From assembly GCA_944322585.1 (NCBI GenBank), contig CALUPB010000020.1, forward strand, positions 1 through 45,543: a stretch of 45,543 bases of DNA. The letters run 5' to 3'. Below the pieces are notes generated by a model, which made no database searches, was not told the origin of the DNA, and worked only from the letters and a program-made list of their open reading frames with translations. Shown here piece after piece: positions 1,074 to 44,790 of the stretch. Within the stretch, counting starts at the first letter, position 1. Every line of letters begins with the position of its first letter. The stretch is from an uncultured Bacteroidales bacterium. Its GTDB lineage: Bacteria; Bacteroidota; Bacteroidia; Bacteroidales; UBA932. The position numbers were made by a program, and so were the translations under genes.

Positions 1074-2920
1074 TCAGGTATTCTCCCGATAATACGGCCG
1101 CAGGAAGTTGTCTATATCATTTTTATCATTAAAAGATAAAAGTGTCATTATGGCTTTTTCATCAAAGTCCGGGATACAGAAATTCTTGATATTGATGCCG
1201 GACAGAGCATAATAACCCGCAGAATATGGTTTGCTGTTCAATGTAATGTATTCCCAGAAAACAGTGCTTTCGATGATTCGTTTTAATATTTGGAGAGTCT
1301 GCATGTTGTCGGAGACGAATGCCATGCCGTTATAAAGTAACAGGTTTTTATCATCGCACAGAATACAATTTAATGGCTTGTCGGCAATTTTCGGAAAAAA
1401 CAGTTTATACCGGGGCATAGTCAATGACTGTGTTCTGCCATATTGATACCACACAGGATATTTCTCTCCGTTCCCCTTATCTCTTGCATATAATGTTTCG
1501 CGTTGCGATTTTAAATATGCATAAGTTTTAGGGTATTCTGTTTTCATTATGTCTTCGTCGATAATACAGGCCTTGCCATCCTGAGATATCAGATATGGGA
1601 AAATTACCTTTTCCGCTATGGCTTGTATGGCCGTTTCAGAGTTCAGCCTGTTTGAATTGACAATGTCCCGGCAGATATTTTTCTCTATGCAATATGTTGC
1701 GTCTTTTTTCTTTATGTAATAGTAGACTTCGTCTTCCTTTACCGGCATAAAAATATATATGTCATTACACAAAGTAGCAATGCCATGGCGGGAACTACAG
1801 TATTTCCTGATCGGGATACCGGCAGATTCGAAATGAAGCGCTTTTTCATGGCTGTTCAGAAGCCATCCCTGAAAGTCATTTAATTTATCATATTCAATAT
1901 TATTGAAAATCTGTTCACGGGTCAGGTCACCTGTTTCGTTGAGCATATAATGGACGGTGTGATTTCTGATGGATTTGTCAAGAAAGAACAGGCAGGTGTA
2001 TGTATTTCTGCTTCTGAACATCTGATGGTCCCTGAAATCTATCAGAGTGATATCGAAGCCTGAATCCGAGAAAAACTTCCGGACGGCACGTCCGTTGACA
2101 GACCTGAAGAAGCTGTTCATTGTTATATATCCTAAAATGCCGTTATCAGATAGCATTTCTACTGCTATCTGAAAAAAGGAATGTATAAGTCAGGATGTCC
2201 GGATATACAGACGGAGTAATTTCGCATTTTTTCTTTTGTCTCTTTGCTGACATTCCGTGAACAGGAGTATGGAGGATTTCCCACTATTACATCGAAGCCG
2301 GAGTAAGCCATGGGCCAGTCCGCAGTTTTGAAATCCAGGGTGTCAGCATGCAGAAGATTGAACTGGAATGCCCTGTCTTCTCCATAGCTATATGCCAGAA
2401 GTTCAAGAATTATTTTAGTCCTTTCTAAGGAATAGTCCTGTATATCGATGCCGAACAGATTTTCTATGTATATGTCATAGAAGTCTTTCCCGGTATGCTC
2501 ATGTATATATATGGCGGCATCCATGAGAAAGCCCCCGCATCCGCAGGCAATGTCTGCGATTCTGATATTTTTTAGCTGTTCATCGGTATATTTTTCTAAA
2601 CATCTGTTTATGATTGTTTTCCTGATGTCTCCCGGTGTATATACAGCTCCTGTTACAATTCTGTCTGCAGGAGAGATGACGAATTCAAAAAGCTCTATCA
2701 GATTCTCGAAAGAAAAACTGTAGCCTGATTTTTTCAGTATTGCTGTGAAATAGTCTGTATCAATATTGTCAATATCCGACTGATTTAATAGACCGGTTAT
2801 ATGATTATTCTGAAAATTCCATCTTTCCTCTTTCTGAAATGCCGAAATGAACAGTCTGTTCACCACGGCAGTATCGGAAAGGTTTATCTTATCCAAATAT
2901 CTGAAAATACTATGTTTCAT
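1074..2920 (-). pseudogene. N6-adenine DNA methylase (Eco57I/TaqI-like), frameshifted
   Basis: This is one gene split into two frames. The upstream part (2920 to 2165, 251 residues) holds the SAM-binding motif I (ADIACGCGGF, around residue 125) and the catalytic motif IV NPPYS for N6-adenine methylation. The downstream part (2156 to 1074) continues as the end of the methylase domain and a TaqI-like target-recognition domain (HGIATLCNDIYIF). The break is in an A6 run on the plus strand at 2172-2177: adding one base joins IPFF to QIAVEMLSDNGILGY without a gap, giving about 613 residues, normal for this family. The gene starts 3 bp after the HNH remnant, so it is the last gene of the kinase-receiver-HNH-methylase operon. 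The catalytic half could still be made, but without its recognition domain. A sequencing error or phase variation remains possible. Confidence 0.85.
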
Positions 2921-2923
2921 ATA

Positions 2924-3318
2924 TCAGAAGACAGGAGTTTCTCTTAATTCTTCTTCATATTTCATATACATTTCTGCAATTTCCCGAATTTGCCTGTTTG
3001 CATCCGGATTATTGTCTGCTGTGTTTTCAATCAGAATTTTCAAGTTTGTCTTCAGGTGTTCCAGTTGCCGGATAATATGGTGTGAAGGATGATATAGTCT
3101 CAGGGTGCTCCACATCCATTCCCCAAGTTCCGTAATCGGGATTATGGAACCGTCCCGAAGTGATCTACTTCGTAATATGTTTGCCTGAAATAATCGTGAT
3201 CGTCACAATACCCGCATCGTTGATGGAAATCTTCCCTCAGTTCCTTTTTCGCTTCGGATGCTTTGTTTATATGTGAAGGGTTTTCTCGCCGATGAGGTGT
3301 ATGTTTCCTGAAATCCAT
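2924..3318 (-). pseudogene. HNH endonuclease remnant with internal deletion
   Basis: From ATG at 3318 the minus strand reads 58 codons to TAA at 3144-3142. The end of this piece, RCGYCDDHDYFRQTYYEVDHF, has CxxC and the EVDHF core of an HNH nuclease (the first His of the beta-beta-alpha-metal fold). Right after it, in another frame, LRDGSIIPITELGEW begins and continues to the stop at 2924; it looks like the C-terminal helical part of the same family (LRLYHPSHHIIRQLEHLK). The middle, where the NxxxxC/N-H half of the active site and a second CxxC would be, is absent. So the gene has an internal deletion of perhaps 60-90 codons with its junction near 3145-3165, and the frame is lost. It starts 2 bp after the receiver gene and ends 3 bp before the methylase, so it was the nuclease partner in that operon. 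The HNH call rests on motifs only. Confidence 0.7.
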
Positions 3319-3320
3319 GA

Positions 3321-3977
3321 TTATCTGTTTTTTAGTTCTGATATCAGGTTGTCGGTTTTTCTGATTATTTCTTTCAGTTGACAGGAATAACCTATTGAAT
3401 TGAGATTGGAAGGCAAGGCATTGTCCTTGTCGGTTTCATTAAGGAACAGCTCGGCATGGAATAATGCCTCATCTTCTTCCGGAGACAAAGTCTGTCCGGA
3501 CAAAGATTTCCGATGAAGTTCCAGAATCGTGGCTTTTGCATTTTCCATTCTGTCCTTGTATGACTTTATGACATGCTTCAATACGAGTATGAAGTTGTCC
3601 AAGGCATCTTTGCCCTTGTCTTCAGAAAGCACTCCTTTCCCGTTTATGATCAGGACATTTTCGCTCTTGTCTATGGCATCTTTCTCAAAAGCGGTCATTA
3701 TGAAAATATGGAAATACTTATTATGTTTCATTATCTCGGACACGACATCTGCACCGGTATATGACACTTGTCCGGAACCATACAGCCGGAAATCCACAAT
3801 AATGGCATCTATATAGTTATCGATAATAAACTGCCATATCTTGTCCAGAGAGATAGGGAAATCCACCACTGTGACATTGAATTCGGAACCGAGTTTATTG
3901 ATCGCTATTGCTTGCCACAACTCTTCTTCATCAAGATAACCTATGTTATATTTGGCCATTTTGTCTTGCATTATCAT
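3321..3977 (-). CDS. Receiver (CheY-like) protein without DNA-binding output
   Basis: About 218 residues. The N-terminal half has the receiver pattern: an acidic cluster after strand 1 (GYLDEEE), the likely phospho-acceptor Asp in IIVDFRLYG, the conserved Thr in IMTAFE, and a Lys in INGKG. The remaining 90 residues are predicted helical and charged, with no helix-turn-helix, so it is not an ordinary transcription factor. The ATG at 3977 overlaps the kinase stop (ATGA), pointing to translational coupling; an earlier ATG at 4004 has an AGGA 6 bases upstream and is also possible. It is the only gene of this operon that looks intact. By position it should be the partner of the kinase next to it, and its output may be the HNH/methylase pair rather than a promoter; that last point is inference. 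Confidence 0.75.
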   Translation of the reverse strand: MIMQDKMAKYNIGYLDEEELWQAIAINKLGSEFNVTVVDFPISLDKIWQFIIDNYIDAIIVDFRLYGSGQVSYTGADVVSEIMKHNKYFHIFIMTAFEKDAIDKSENVLIINGKGVLSEDKGKDALDNFILVLKHVIKSYKDRMENAKATILELHRKSLSGQTLSPEEDEALFHAELFLNETDKDNALPSNLNSIGYSCQLKEIIRKTDNLISELKNR

Positions 3978-4899
3978 TTCAGTTTTAATATTATTTTCAT
4001 ACAAAATCCTTTTGGGACGGGATTTACATATATTTGGGCATCCGGATAAGAGTCTATTATCCCTTTGACAATGAATAATCCCATTCCGGTTCCTGTCTTA
4101 TTCCCGTTTTTGTCTCTGGAGGAGGTCTCGAACGCGTCGAAAATCATTTGAGGATTCTGGGTGTATTCTGCGGCAAGCCCCAGACCGTTATCCATGAAAT
4201 CGACCTTCAGAAAACCGGATTGGCAGATCCATTTTAGTGTAATTCTCTTGTCATTCCCGGATGTCCTGAGCAAAGATGTGACAGCGTTGGTTATTAAATT
4301 GTTGAATATACTGTCCAAATCTATTTCATATCCGTAGAATATCGGTTCGCCTTCATTCGGATTGATATCGAAATGAATATTTTTCTGTTCAAGGGATGGC
4401 GCCCACGAAAGTTTAAGGTTATTGAAATAGTCTTTCAGCAATATTTCCTTCCTGTCCCGTTTGTCGCGGCGGATAGCATTGAGGGAATAATTCAGCCATT
4501 GATGCAGTTTGATATCATCATTTCTGATGAGTTGCAGCAGATAGTATGGATTGTCGAATTTGCTTTTCTTGGCAACATCTTCTTCAGGGATTAACTGCAA
4601 CATCGCATCCCTGAGCAAATCGGTGCGTGGCAACAATAATTTGGAAAGGCTTTGTAATTCATGGGTAAATGAGGCTACAGCTATCCCGCTGCTTGCAAGG
4701 CTTCTTAACATTCTGATTTCCGCATCTTTCTCGGACAGTTCGTTTTCCAGAGAGGAATAGCCTTCTGCCAGAATTTTCTCATTGTCGCTGAACTGTTTTT
4801 TCTGTCTTCATCCCGTCTCCGGTTTATGGTATCGGAAACTTTTTTAGCCTTATCTTCGTTCTGATGAAGCAATTTATAATATTGTGACAAAGAATACAT
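3974..4899 (-). pseudogene. Histidine kinase, frameshifted and probably lacking its N-terminal sensor
   Basis: The downstream part (4711 to 3974) is a clear histidine kinase: H-box ASFTHELQS, N-box NNLITNAVTSLL, G1 DNGLGL, F-box FDAFETS and G2 GTGMGLFIVK. The upstream part (4899 to 4705) is a charged helix in another frame. They join if one base is added to the T6 run at 4796-4801 (A6 on the coding strand): DRKN... becomes DRKKQFSDNEKILAEGYSSL and runs straight into MLRSLASSGIAV. The restored protein has about 308 residues starting MYSLSQYY, with a short coiled coil and no sensor domain or membrane segment. A stop codon lies in frame 14 codons upstream, so the gene either really is this short or lost a large N-terminal part where the island meets aroK. 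The kinase core could still be made from an internal start. Confidence 0.8.
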
Positions 4900-4953
4900 G
4901 ATCGTATTCCTGTCTTTTTCGAAATGAATGGAAAATTGTTATATTCACAAGGA

Positions 4954-5694
4954 TTATCTGGCGTCCGGCAGGCGGGAAGCGATTTCGGAGGCGACGGCGG
5001 GGAAGGATTTGCCGTCGATGTCGATGATGAGGCGGGCGGTGGATTCGTAGGCCTTGCTGCGGCAAGACATGAGGGTTTCAATTCTGTCGCGAAGGGTGGA
5101 GGAATAGGAATCTTTCGGGAAATATCGGGACGGTTCAGGATGGAGGGTAGCGGAAGCAGTCCCGGCGGAGGAGAGCATGGGACGGTTCGAGGTGTCGTTC
5201 TGCAGATTCCGGACGAGGGTGTCGATGCCTGCCTGCAGGTAGATGCAGAATGTCTTTTCTCTTATCAATTCCACACATCCGGGAGTAGTAAGGGTCCCCC
5301 CTCCGAGGGACAGTATAAAGTCGGCAGGTCCGTCAGGAATAGCAGCGGATTGAGATATGCTGGGGATGTCAGGAAGTGCGGCAGGGGTGTGCGACATGGA
5401 GGTACTGCCCGGAGTGCCGGAGAGGGCATTTGTTGCGGTATTGTCTGCCACATTGATTGCAGGTTGAGTGCACATTGACCGGGACAGGGGAAGAAGCAGT
5501 CGCCGGAGGGCAGAGAGTTCCATTGTACGGAATGCCGGTTCTCCGTCTGTTGTGAAGATTTCGGGGATGGTTCGTCCGGCAGAGTTCTCTATAAAGGTAT
5601 CGAGATCCACGACAGGCAGGGAAAGCAGTGTCGAGAGTTCTTTCCCGACACTGCTTTTACCGCATCCCATAAATCCTGTCAACGATATTATCAT
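4954..5694 (-). CDS. aroK: Shikimate kinase with extra low-complexity insertion
   Basis: Phosphorylates shikimate with ATP (fifth step of the chorismate pathway), in the cytosol. Walker A is GFMGCGKSS (residues 7-15); the substrate-binding residues follow as DLD (30-32), an Arg in EPAFR (56), and GGGT (131-134). The LID carries NRPML (170-174) and the C-terminal helix has the RxxxYExxA pattern (RSKAYESTA). At 246 residues it is some 70 longer than the usual 170-175: residues about 70-122 are a Ser/Thr/Pro/Ala-rich stretch between helix and GGGT loop, and the LID is also lengthened (about 175-198). All catalytic positions are kept, so it is probably active. The start is 2 bp after the parC stop; it is the last gene of the rluB-era-parC-aroK run. 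Confidence 0.92.
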   Translation of the reverse strand: MIISLTGFMGCGKSSVGKELSTLLSLPVVDLDTFIENSAGRTIPEIFTTDGEPAFRTMELSALRRLLLPLSRSMCTQPAINVADNTATNALSGTPGSTSMSHTPAALPDIPSISQSAAIPDGPADFILSLGGGTLTTPGCVELIREKTFCIYLQAGIDTLVRNLQNDTSNRPMLSSAGTASATLHPEPSRYFPKDSYSSTLRDRIETLMSCRSKAYESTARLIIDIDGKSFPAVASEIASRLPDAR

Positions 5695-41345: not shown

Positions 41346-42914
41346 ATGACGACAAAGGAACAAAACAAGTTATCGAGAATGATATTGTATGAGCAAATCC
41401 ACCGCTATCATGCCGAGCGCAAGTCAGCTCGGTGGATAGCCGACCGTCTGAAGATAAACCCGCGGACGGTCAAGAAGTATCTGTCAATGAGTCAGGCCGA
41501 GTTCGAACGGCATTCGGACAACATCAACCGTAAGGGGTTCAAGCTTCAGAGGTACACCACCTTTGTCGTAGAACGTCTCAAGAAGTATCAGGACACACCT
41601 GCGGCCCAGATGCACGATCTGCTGAAAGAGCATTACCCGGACTTCCCGGCAGTATCCCCCAAGACCGTCTACAACTATGTGATGAAGATACGTCAGGAAC
41701 ATGGTCTGCCTGCAGTAAGCGCATCGGAGCGGCAATACAGCTGCATTCCTGAAACAGCCCCCGGCAGATATGCCCAGGTTGACTTCGGGCAGATGAAGCT
41801 GCGCAAAGGAGACGGCACACGAATCAGAGTGTACTTTATGGTGATGATCCTATGCTGGAGCCGGTTCAAGTATGCATGGTTCCAGGACAGGCCGTTCACC
41901 AGCGAAAGTGCATCACTGGCCCATGAGAAGGCTTTCGAATACTTCCATGGTGTGCCGGGCCATATCATATATGATCAGGATGCGGTCTTCCTTTATGACG
42001 AGAACATCGGTGACTATAGGATGACGACAGTCTTCGAGAGCTATGTAAAGAGCCGTCCTTTCAAACCGGTCTTCTGCCGTCCCGCGGATCCGGAAAGCAA
42101 AGGCAAGGTCGAGAATGCCGTGAAATACGTCAAGCATAACTTCCTGCTCAACCGTCAGTACAGCACCCTTGAGAACCTGCAGGAGGAAGCGGAGGCCTGG
42201 CTGTCCAGGACAGGAAACGGCATGGTCCATTCCACGACTATGAAAGTCCCTCAGGAGCAGTGGTACATTGAATGCAGGTCCCTGCTGCCGCACATTCCGC
42301 TTGCCCTGTCATCCGGAACGGATGCCGGCCATCAGGTCATGAAAACCAACAGCGTCCGGTACAGAGGCAACATATACACCCTTCCGATAGGCACCTACAA
42401 GGGAGAAGGCAGTGTGGTATATCTTAAGGAGGAAGGCGTCAGTCTGGTTATAACAGATTCAGACGGGCACGAGATAGCCCGACACATAATGCCCTCCGGG
42501 AGCGGTCAGAAGGTCATCAACAGCAACCATCTCAGGGACCGGTCGGTGAAACTGTCCGAATACCGGAAAAAGGTTGAAGCCATGTTCGGCGACAGTGATG
42601 CGGCATCCCTTTTTGCGGCCAGACTCCAGGAAAGATATCCAAGGTATCTGCGCGACCAGCTGGCAGTGCTTCAGGAGTGCATGGTCAGCTATGGCCGGGA
42701 ATCATGCGACAAGGCACTGGCAATCTGCTGCGAGAACAGACTCTTCAGTGCGTCCAGCTTCCGGGAGATTGCCGAAGGGCTTCGCCCGGCTGGGAAGGAC
42801 ACCGCCCATGTAACCGTAAAGACAGTCGGCAACGGCAGGTCGCGTATGATGGCGAACTTCCAGCCCGGGACATCATCCATAGACACGTACAACAACCTTT
42901 TCACGAAATCCTGA
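41346..42914 (+). CDS. istA: IS21 transposase IstA
   Basis: 522 residues. N-terminal helix-turn-helix (SARWIADRLKINPRTVKKYL), then an RNase H-fold DDE core: first Asp in YAQVDFGQM, second in IIYDQDAVF, Glu in PESKGKVENAVKYVKHNF. A C-terminal beta-barrel and helix follow (NSVRYRGNIYTLPIG). Length and motifs are as in active IS21 relatives. istB starts 1 bp after the stop. Confidence 0.94.
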   Translation: MTTKEQNKLSRMILYEQIHRYHAERKSARWIADRLKINPRTVKKYLSMSQAEFERHSDNINRKGFKLQRYTTFVVERLKKYQDTPAAQMHDLLKEHYPDFPAVSPKTVYNYVMKIRQEHGLPAVSASERQYSCIPETAPGRYAQVDFGQMKLRKGDGTRIRVYFMVMILCWSRFKYAWFQDRPFTSESASLAHEKAFEYFHGVPGHIIYDQDAVFLYDENIGDYRMTTVFESYVKSRPFKPVFCRPADPESKGKVENAVKYVKHNFLLNRQYSTLENLQEEAEAWLSRTGNGMVHSTTMKVPQEQWYIECRSLLPHIPLALSSGTDAGHQVMKTNSVRYRGNIYTLPIGTYKGEGSVVYLKEEGVSLVITDSDGHEIARHIMPSGSGQKVINSNHLRDRSVKLSEYRKKVEAMFGDSDAASLFAARLQERYPRYLRDQLAVLQECMVSYGRESCDKALAICCENRLFSASSFREIAEGLRPAGKDTAHVTVKTVGNGRSRMMANFQPGTSSIDTYNNLFTKS

Positions 42915-42915
42915 T

Positions 42916-43710
42916 ATGGAACATACCGATAAACTCTCAATAATACGAAGCCACGCCAGGAGGCTGAAGCTGTCCTGGATTGGAGCGAATGTGGCAGAGA
43001 CACTTGTGAGGGCACAAAGCGCTTCACCCAGCTACGATGACTTCCTTATAGACCTGATGCAGTCTGAAGTGGCATCACGTGAAGCACACCGGAAGATATT
43101 GCGCTACAAGAATGCCCGTCTGCCCATGTCCCATGACCTGGACCAATACGACTTCACAATGTCCGGCGGCCTGTCGATGACACAGCTGCATCAGCTCCGC
43201 GAGCTGCACTGGGTTGAAGCCGGCTTCAACATAATGCTTGCCGGGCCGTCCGGTGTCGGCAAGACCTTCATCGCCGCCGGACTGTGCGCAGATGCCATTG
43301 AACACGGATACCGTGCTTCATTCCGTACCATGGATGAAATACTCCAGACACTCCGGACCCGTGACATGACATCTGCCGGCAGGGCTGCCTACAAAAACCT
43401 CTGTTCCTCGCACGTAATCGTCATTGATGACCTGATGAATATAATCGTTGACAGGGAGGAGGGGAATATGCTCTTCGCGTTCATCAACTCCATGTATGAG
43501 ACAACCTCGTTCATAATAACGACAAACCGCTCTCCGGCAGAATGGGCACAGACAATAGGTGATGAAGTTCTTGCAACCGCCATCCTTGACCGTCTGCTAT
43601 ATAAATGCGAGCTCATACAGCTCTCAGGCAGAAGCTACAGGATGGCCAACAGAAAAACCATATTCGAACAGTCCCAGACTGAAAACAAGAATGAAAAAAG
43701 CAGGTTATAG
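42916..43710 (+). CDS. istB: IS21 helper ATPase IstB
   Basis: 264 residues, DnaA/DnaC-like AAA+ ATPase that selects the target with IstA. Walker A LAGPSGVGKTFIA (about residue 110), Walker B HVIVIDDLMN, sensor 1 IITTNRSPAEW, arginine in ILDRLLYKCELI. Complete. Confidence 0.94.
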   Translation: MEHTDKLSIIRSHARRLKLSWIGANVAETLVRAQSASPSYDDFLIDLMQSEVASREAHRKILRYKNARLPMSHDLDQYDFTMSGGLSMTQLHQLRELHWVEAGFNIMLAGPSGVGKTFIAAGLCADAIEHGYRASFRTMDEILQTLRTRDMTSAGRAAYKNLCSSHVIVIDDLMNIIVDREEGNMLFAFINSMYETTSFIITTNRSPAEWAQTIGDEVLATAILDRLLYKCELIQLSGRSYRMANRKTIFEQSQTENKNEKSRL

Positions 43711-43978: not shown

Positions 43979-44790
43979 TTATACAATGACTCGTCCGCCT
44001 TCAAAGCGGACTTTTTTTAACTGCTCATCAGTGATTAGTTTATTAATAGAACCATCCTCCGATTTCACTAATATTTTGGGAGTTCCTTGTGCTTCCACGA
44101 TTATTTGATGTTTTATAATCTGTCGTTTAACAGCGTAATCAATACGATTAATTTCTATGTTTAAATCTCCATATGGAATAAATTCTTCGTGGAAAATCCA
44201 AGAACCATGATACATACCATCATCGTATGGAATGGAAGAAATAGAAGGCGCATAGTCGTTTATTAACTCATTAATGGTAATTGTTATATCTCCTTGTGTA
44301 TTGTAGAAATTTTCGATATGACAATCTAATGTTTTATTTAGTAAATTATTCTTTTTGAGTAAATTTATGGCATTATTTGATAAATGGATATGATACTGAG
44401 CATGTTCGAAATCATCTATTATCATTTCTATATTGATAATAATTCGTTCCACTCTTCCTTTTCGATCTAATTCTGTAGAAGGCCGAATATGAAGTAGATT
44501 AATTGGTTTCTGGGATGGATTGATATGAGTGCTATTTGCATATTTTTTTGCAGGGGCGGTATAATCTGTTGCTGAAGCAAATATTCCTTGTTTAATTGGT
44601 AAATCATTCAAAGCTCCTGCTTGTTTTTGGATATCTCCTCTGCCTACCTTTTTACCTTCTATTGAGTAGTCTTTGGCCTCTACCATTGTAGATGTTTGTG
44701 GTGAATGCGCATCTAATTGGAAATCGGTATTGCTGTAGATTCCTGTTAAAGTAAAGTCTCTTTCGACAAAGTCTATGTTACACTGTTGCT
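43979..44790 (-). pseudogene. PD-(D/E)XK restriction endonuclease, N-terminally truncated
   Basis: The coding sequence runs to TAA at 43981-43979. Before the first ATG (44686) it continues in frame with CNIDFVERDFTLTGIYSNTD and FQLDAHSPQTSTMVEAKDYS, the Asp...ExK nuclease active site, then GKKVGRGDIQKQAGALN (the helix Gln) and GIFASATDYTAPAKKYA, typical for restriction nucleases of this fold. Upstream it turns into a Gln/His stretch and a stop at about 44846; no start codon of any kind lies between. So the active site straddles the only ATG, and the front of the gene is missing. It is strikingly AT-rich against its neighbours, a sign of transfer. The end point 44790 is approximate. It could make a fragment from ATG 44686, lacking the Asp. 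Confidence 0.65.
43993..44018 (+). terminator. Intrinsic terminator on the plus strand, inside the nuclease 3' end
   Basis: GTCCGC (43993-43998), a 7-base loop and GCGGAC (44006-44011), then seven T. A textbook terminator for plus-strand transcription, but no plus-strand gene ends here except the IS; it lies antisense to the end of the nuclease fragment. Confidence 0.5.

Follow-up and report, generated by a model that had tools for sequence, protein, structure and literature searches.

A decayed four-gene operon in a Bacteroidales genome

The stretch of DNA analyzed here, hereafter the window, spans 45,543 nucleotides of contig CALUPB010000020.1 from an uncultured Bacteroidales bacterium (GenBank assembly GCA_944322585.1). 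From about position 4926 down to position 1074 its minus strand carries genes for a histidine kinase, a receiver protein, an HNH nuclease and an N6-adenine methylase, in that order, which we are inclined to read, from comparison with relatives, as a decayed and probably horizontally acquired copy of a phosphorelay-gated, restriction-modification (R-M)-like operon with a predicted role in defence. The stop codon of the kinase overlaps the ATG of the receiver (3977-3974), and the next two genes follow after gaps of 2 and 3 bp. An earlier note on this DNA had described the four genes, their order and these joints, and had called the set a remnant. The arrangement is confirmed by the open reading frames (ORFs), by Pfam and by tblastn with relatives, which moves the upstream edge of homology to near 4926, about 25 bp beyond the start noted before; the decay is likewise borne out and goes further than described, in that the N-terminal ~455 residues of the kinase and the interior of the HNH protein are also lost.

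The kinase survives as two pieces in different frames. The first (4783..4926, minus strand), which lies inside ORF 4705-4899 and its upstream edge, was recovered by tblastn with the intact kinases L033, L049 and L043 and corresponds to approximately residues 455-502 of intact relatives, i.e. the helix preceding the phospho-His domain. The second (3974..4783, minus; ~residues 501-782) contains the phospho-His region, whose motif we read as FTHEL, and the C-terminal HATPase_c domain (54% identity to L033 over 266 amino acids (aa); Pfam E 1.1e-12 in ORF 3974-4711). Residues ~1-455, and with them the MORC/Hsp90-like ATPase half, are missing, and residues 1-503 of the intact kinase of a Bacteroides finegoldii plasmid (L007) found no match at E<=0.001 across the assembly of the window (2.87 Mb, 33 contigs, 94% complete). 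The only undamaged gene is that of the receiver (3321..3977, minus; 218 aa), delineated by alignment, Pfam and a structure model; its ORF (3321-4004) gives a weak Response_reg match (E 0.041) under the Pfam cut-off. The HNH nuclease is represented by an N-terminal piece with the CxxC and DH motifs (3142..3318, minus; ~residues 1-55, 62% identity to the L046 HNH over 55 aa) and a C-terminal piece (2924..3175, minus; ~residues 112-193, 42% identity to the same protein over 83 aa), with an internal loss of residues ~56-111 that removes part of the active site. A Pfam scan of these pieces returned no HNH match; the first has weak PtuB matches in PADLOC (best E 3e-4), and tblastn places 65 of 78 HNH relatives on the window DNA. 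The methylase, of the Eco57I type, is present at full length in two frames with a break near 2170: an N-terminal piece with the NPPY motif (2165..2920, minus; 56% identity to L043 over 254 aa; Pfam N6_Mtase E 4.3e-13 and Eco57I E 2e-12 in the ORF of that span) and, past the break, the remaining methylase domain with the probable recognition region (1074..2177, minus; 59% identity to L043 over 343 aa). The latter matches the PADLOC MTase_II model PDLC03335 (E 2.5e-54), and ORF 1074-2156 matches the C-terminal part of Eco57I slightly under the Pfam cut-off (E 8.1e-5). Having lost the sensor of the kinase, the center of the HNH domain and the methylase frame, the window copy is a remnant that cannot function as a whole. 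Its G+C content (39.6% in 1074-4950, vs 52.1% from 4950 to the window end) suggests that the stretch was probably acquired horizontally.

The intact operon recurs across distant lineages

An alignment of 7 kinase sequences, mostly from such operons, retrieved 487 relatives from a collection of 84,980 species, each represented by a single genome. In the neighborhoods of the best 80 of these, with genes assigned by profiles built for this analysis, all four genes occur on one strand in 77; 75 show the order kinase-receiver-HNH-methylase, two (L031, L095) place the methylase first, and in the other three (L036, L074, L092) the contig ends after the receiver or HNH gene. The methylase gene is present in 77/77 of the loci that their contig covers in full. 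Short or split genes mark three of the 75 ordered loci (HNH in L034, the kinase along with a cut methylase in L071, the receiver in L084), and two others (L085, L101) include a small extra piece. When all 99 loci with a kinase longer than 500 aa are taken together (80 genomic, 9 viral and 10 others, the last including L016 and the sister-type L017 and L019 described below), the strict order holds in 81, with median intergenic gaps of +1, -4 and -4 bp. Named complete copies lie on the B. finegoldii plasmid and on a Salipiger plasmid (L008); their genes are annotated as sensor histidine kinase, hypothetical protein, HNH endonuclease and N-6 DNA methylase, and Pfam confirms all their products save the Salipiger receiver. 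Sequence titles place the operon in Bacteroidota, Campylobacterota, Desulfobacterales, Paenibacillus, Saccharibacteria, Verrucomicrobia and the archaeon Methanolobus, with the proviso that metagenome bins may be contaminated. The recurrence of the same four parts in the same order across distant phyla indicates that the arrangement in the window did not arise by chance. The intact clusters for which the earlier note had suggested searching thus exist in number, whereas homologues that never occur together would have spoken against it.

In two of the complete operons (L066, L096) the kinase profile seems to be matched by a second gene as well; the likely candidate, of 780-782 aa, lies immediately upstream. 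On a Hymenobacter volaticus plasmid (L016, 4565-9699) the kinase-receiver core is accompanied by an upstream N6_Mtase-type gene, and a metallo-beta-lactamase-fold hydrolase replaces the HNH protein, a single case of a possible effector swap; the L016 receiver found no further copies of this type in 341 genomes, a search that had no positive control.

Searches begun from the receiver converge on the same neighborhood. The window receiver was compared with 393 genomes from its order and 395 from its phylum, two sets that overlap slightly, and has, besides itself, eight strong matches (E<=6.1e-11) and two weak ones. All eight strong matches lie within the operon, although in G080 a contig start leaves only the end of the kinase visible. 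As four of these loci had seeded the profiles, their HNH and methylase proteins were rechecked by blastp, and 16/16 match the Pfam-confirmed plasmid proteins or the window methylase pieces at E<=1.3e-25. The two weak matches are short, ordinary CheY-like receivers, one adjoining what by eye is a PAS-type kinase. The receiver therefore stands apart from ordinary transcription factors, with which the earlier note had considered it might cluster. The operon is carried by 4 of the 394 other genomes of the phylum sample (~1%). No near relatives of the window receiver were found among viral contigs; the kinase alignment did find nine viral loci.

Domain anatomy of the components

The intact kinase combines an N-terminal HATPase_c_3 domain (57/58 members by Pfam) with a C-terminal HATPase_c domain (58/58). 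Across 78 complete loci its phospho-His is invariant, and both ATP sites retain their key residues; the N-terminal Glu and Asn are kept in 75/78, the Glu (Glu30) being presumably the hydrolysis base. Profile comparison links its GHKL part to MORC3 (E 1.5e-5, profile positions 27-196) and its C-terminal part to histidine kinases, and the top chains in fold searches are Hsp90, MORC and TopoVI-B, over ~500 columns. A model of the L025 kinase is of moderate quality (predicted local distance difference test score, pLDDT, 83; predicted template-modeling score, pTM, 0.63; whole-chain template-modeling (TM) scores of ~0.3). Accordingly predicted with some reserve, the kinase is a MORC/Hsp90-like ATPase joined to a histidine-kinase core, with a less secure S5-like part: its GGIKIYRDxFRV region resembles by eye the MORC S5 motif GhXhhpXXRhl, of which there is no exact match. 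A 19-residue window above 1.6 on the Kyte-Doolittle scale is absent from 70 of the 78 kinases, and the other eight exceed this value slightly; the intact protein is therefore probably soluble. PADLOC places weak REase_II matches on the N-terminal ATPase (best E 7e-7).

In an alignment of 66 receivers a single Asp is invariant, and Response_reg is detected in 28. The acceptor Asp is kept in 78/78 and the Thr and Lys in 77/78 of the complete loci, and all are retained in the window receiver (D16/E17, D62, T95, K114). Its model shows a receiver fold followed by C-terminal helices (mean pLDDT 91) and no DNA-binding domain, nor does any recur among the 66 members by Pfam at E<=0.01, where one Cdh1_DBD_1 and three TetR C-terminal domain matches were seen. 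The earlier view of a receiver devoid of DNA-binding output is in keeping with this model, which adds the helical C-terminal region. Fold matches include PorX and RssB, as well as DNA-binding regulators such as KdpE, the latter through the receiver domain; PorX does not work by simple DNA binding, nor is RssB known to do so. The NCBIfam family NF052378 (LM5578_1851 family response regulator) is matched by 17/66 receivers, and LM5578_1851 is presumably a Listeria-type locus name. As a family assignment for the window receiver it was rejected, the match (E 7.4e-8) scoring 32 bits, far under the cut-off of 150; similar operons may nonetheless exist at LM5578_1851-family loci, judging by these matches, and a literature search for that name found no paper.

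The catalytic residues of the enzymes are equally stable: the His/Asn/Asn of the HNH nuclease, a protein of only ~190 aa, are kept in 78/78 loci, and the NPPY of the methylase in 77-78/78. The HNH protein of L007 resembles PtuB profiles in PADLOC (best E 8e-13).

The nuclease follows the signaling pair while the methylase changes

Pairwise divergences across the 78 complete loci are strongly correlated between kinase and receiver (0.88), receiver and HNH (0.81) and kinase and HNH (0.78), as against 0.16-0.25 for pairs involving the methylase. The pattern persists within each of the two methylase types (37 and 41 loci; core pairs 0.80-0.92, methylase 0.30-0.51) and in 59 non-redundant loci (0.69-0.83 and 0.08-0.19, respectively); every correlation, those of the methylase included, exceeds permutations. 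The partial correlations (kinase-receiver given HNH 0.69, receiver-HNH given kinase 0.41, kinase-HNH given receiver 0.23) fit a chain running from kinase through receiver to HNH. Mapped onto the kinase tree, the methylase types require 12 changes (mean 26.3 and minimum 20 with shuffled labels), while the HNH subtype, defined by the presence or absence of Cys at position 38 of L025, requires 3. In the top eight such cases, HNH pairs <=62% identical are paired with methylases of different type that are 16-21% identical. Together, the co-divergence, the type changes and these identities suggest that the nuclease travels with the signaling pair and that the methylase is an exchangeable module. We also considered shuffling of recognition domains; in the identity profiles of five methylase pairs no abrupt fall is limited to the recognition region, which points to replacement of the whole methylase instead.

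Viral, plasmid and genomic context

In the viral contig L109 the operon is flanked on one side by a gpA-like replication gene (phrog_91, E 1.4e-250) and on the other by a portal gene (phrog_68, E 2.8e-144), past which follow terminase, scaffold and capsid genes. This is the order of P2, and on it we call the contig P2-like. For P2-like phages of E. coli the interval between gpA and portal has been described as a hotspot where antiviral systems reside (PMC9122126). Six more viral contigs (L102-L107) carry kinase, receiver and HNH genes with an N6-type methylase gene immediately before or after, and two others (L108, L110) have a gene of the same size in the methylase place. The P2-like form has no E. 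coli copies by blastn and two partial matches in a phage collection. Broken copies also occur on plasmids of Klebsiella variicola, with the kinase split over three ORFs, and of Rhizobium phaseoli, with the kinase split over two; along with the broken window copy, they would fit a costly and dispensable gene set. The phage hotspot, the plasmid copies and the low G+C content of the remnant make up the context for the predicted antiviral role.

Upstream of the kinase remnant the window encodes a shikimate kinase (4954-5694, minus) with ~50 low-complexity residues, by eye, in mid-protein. Among 26 same-genus relatives, the window genome included, its only other match at E<=1e-30 is in G788, at 46% identity, and none of the four gene profiles match the corresponding region there at E<=1e-3. 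On the other side the remnant adjoins an AAA-ATPase_like/PDDEXK_9 protein (16-1053, plus), probably truncated by the contig start. Farther away are two neighboring genes resembling, by eye from their translations, an IS21-type transposase and its helper ATPase (41346-43710, plus), and a 235-aa ORF resembling a truncated restriction-endonuclease-like protein (43979-44686, minus; by eye) in a stretch of 34-35% G+C.

A possible phosphorelay-gated nuclease

These observations would be accommodated by a mechanism in which the N-terminal ATPase of the kinase clamps foreign or wrongly modified DNA, leading to phosphorylation of its conserved His. The phosphate would pass to the receiver Asp, as the conserved residues suggest, and the phosphorylated receiver, via its helical C-terminal region, would activate or recruit the HNH nuclease to cut the DNA. 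The methylase, exchangeable as the comparison indicates, would mark host DNA as self. The sharper proposal, namely that a MORC-like clamp reads the state of DNA, a His-Asp relay signals it and the phosphorylated receiver directly licenses the HNH protein, such that the kinase rather than site recognition by the nuclease discriminates self from non-self, is one we put forward tentatively and at rather less than even confidence. Were the decision to lie with the kinase, methylases of differing specificity could be plugged in with the nuclease unchanged. The earlier note had supposed that the phosphorelay gates an enzyme instead of transcription. For the nuclease this gains indirect support from the phospho-acceptor residues, the lack of a DNA-binding domain and the co-divergence of kinase, receiver and HNH; for the methylase, which co-diverges weakly and repeatedly changes type, it gains none. 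Restriction enzymes normally decide by themselves the site and time of cutting; if it is true that kinase and receiver do so here, bacteria would police DNA with the classic chemistry of environmental signaling, in an operon spread over several bacterial phyla and one archaeal-labeled contig.

Several points weigh against this reading of a gated defence operon. The 80 loci were chosen by similarity to a query for which such operons had supplied most of the sequences, and the phage-hotspot evidence is one contig, L109. Co-divergence reflects a long common history rather than contact; the genes for kinase, receiver and HNH lie side by side and that for the methylase mostly stands last, such that block replacement could lower its correlation; and the methylase is not free of the core, its correlations exceeding permutations and its type changes being fewer than with shuffled labels. 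The metallo-hydrolase of L016 sits in the HNH place, hence HNH is not the sole output. Among the structural arguments, the kinase model is only moderate, the predicted receiver fold also matches DNA-binding regulators, and DNA sensing by the N-terminal ATPase is an analogy drawn from its relatives.

Alternatives and relation to known systems

The window alone, with four mostly broken genes, would be little evidence against ordinary type II R-M genes that by chance lie beside an unrelated two-component system; to this we give next to no credence, as it is contradicted by the census, the eight receiver matches, the overlapping genes and the co-divergence. Two-component pairs usually act on transcription and all the genes form one operon, as would be expected if kinase and receiver exerted ordinary control over methylase expression or activity, or over transcription of the operon, with the HNH protein a conventional, ungated restriction enzyme. 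This we regard as improbable: the receiver model has no DNA-binding domain and none recurs in the family, the methylase co-diverges least, and the persistence of a ~190-aa HNH protein through replacements of methylase type is difficult to square with an enzyme whose fixed site is matched to that of its methylase. That same persistence, and the metallo-hydrolase of L016 as a sign of exchangeable effectors, would suit abortive infection, whereby the kinase senses infection rather than methylation, phosphorylation of the receiver releases a non-specific HNH nuclease that destroys host and phage DNA alike, and the methylase is a sensor or brake. Two-component pairs can indeed drive defence with ATP loss, as reported for Detocs (PMC11249213). 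We consider this unlikely, if a stronger contender than ordinary control, since a methylase in every uncut locus, in divergent versions, is the pattern of self-marking in R-M systems.

The operon might also simply belong to a published family, that of the HEF_HK kinases (PF19191) and Response_reg_2 receivers (PF19192), whose R-M partners prominently include C5 methylases, Vsr and HNH_2 and for which a relation to paraMORC has been suggested (Bellieny-Rabelo 2021, PMC8011034). The kinase layout is the same, with two GHKL domains (HATPase_c_3, His domain, HATPase_c), and there too a receiver is a neighbor and methylases and nucleases, HNH_2 among them, are associated. However, none of 58 kinases match PF19191 and none of 66 receivers PF19192 at E<=0.01. 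A midpoint-rooted tree of 96 kinases separates the 87 of the operon from nine sister kinases with support of 0.93; the tree holds no proven HEF_HK member, and the sister kinases themselves match PF19191 weakly and under the cut-off in two of nine cases (L161, L019). C5 methylases dominate the published set, and the terms Eco57I and N6_Mtase are absent from the main text of that paper, whereas the operon has an N6-adenine Eco57I-type methylase, a dedicated HNH gene and a fixed four-gene order. Membership thus appears doubtful, and by sequence the operon is better described as a distinct variant of the two-component/R-M pairs published in 2021 (PMC8011034). In the sister systems (L155-L161, L017, L019) the gene after the dual-ATPase kinase mostly encodes a longer protein (~340-690 aa; in L157 the contig end truncates that gene), which in three cases begins with a receiver domain by Pfam; a dcm-type methylase lies beside L017, with lookalike genes at L156 and L159.

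The earlier note knew of no named system with exactly this set. PADLOC-DB 2023, with which the window and L007 were scanned, indeed has no model for the kinase-receiver pair, and no paper describing or testing the four-gene set was found in searches of the open-licence PMC literature, but the 2021 family is a published relative. The window methylase matches PDLC03335 and that of L007 PDLC03267, both of them single-protein MTase_II models of Eco57I-like type II enzymes that are silent on a kinase or receiver; retention of the HNH protein across methylase types would speak against the simple match of nuclease and methylase specificity of type II R-M systems. Septu was rejected as a classification, its profiles matching the HNH protein of the L007 operon alone and not the kinase or receiver: the HNH domain resembles PtuB, while the ATPase of the operon is a GHKL kinase and Septu PtuA is an ABC/SMC-type ATPase. 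Detocs reportedly comprises three genes, with an ATP-degrading effector in its best-described case, and is not known to have a methylase or MORC-like ATPase; it reportedly has a receiver-effector protein, unlike this four-gene operon, in which receiver and HNH are separate ORFs wherever both were found. Two-component signaling in the service of defence is common to both (PMC11249213). In Shedu VcSduA, too, an N-terminal GHKL ATPase goes with a nuclease and is described as required for it in defence, but there a PD-(D/E)XK nuclease is fused to the ATPase and there is no phosphorelay (PMC12137116). The MORC and paraMORC ATPases have been linked to R-M systems (Iyer 2008, PMC2292703). They share with the operon the N-terminal GHKL ATPase, the S5-like region and the R-M neighborhoods, in which paraMORC1 can adjoin HNH genes; the text of that study, figures aside, uses neither 'receiver' nor 'response regulator', whereas the ATPase of the operon is fused to a histidine-kinase core and lies beside a receiver. 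If our reading is correct, the role in R-M proposed in 2008 for bacterial MORC-like ATPases would become testable in a compact four-gene operon.

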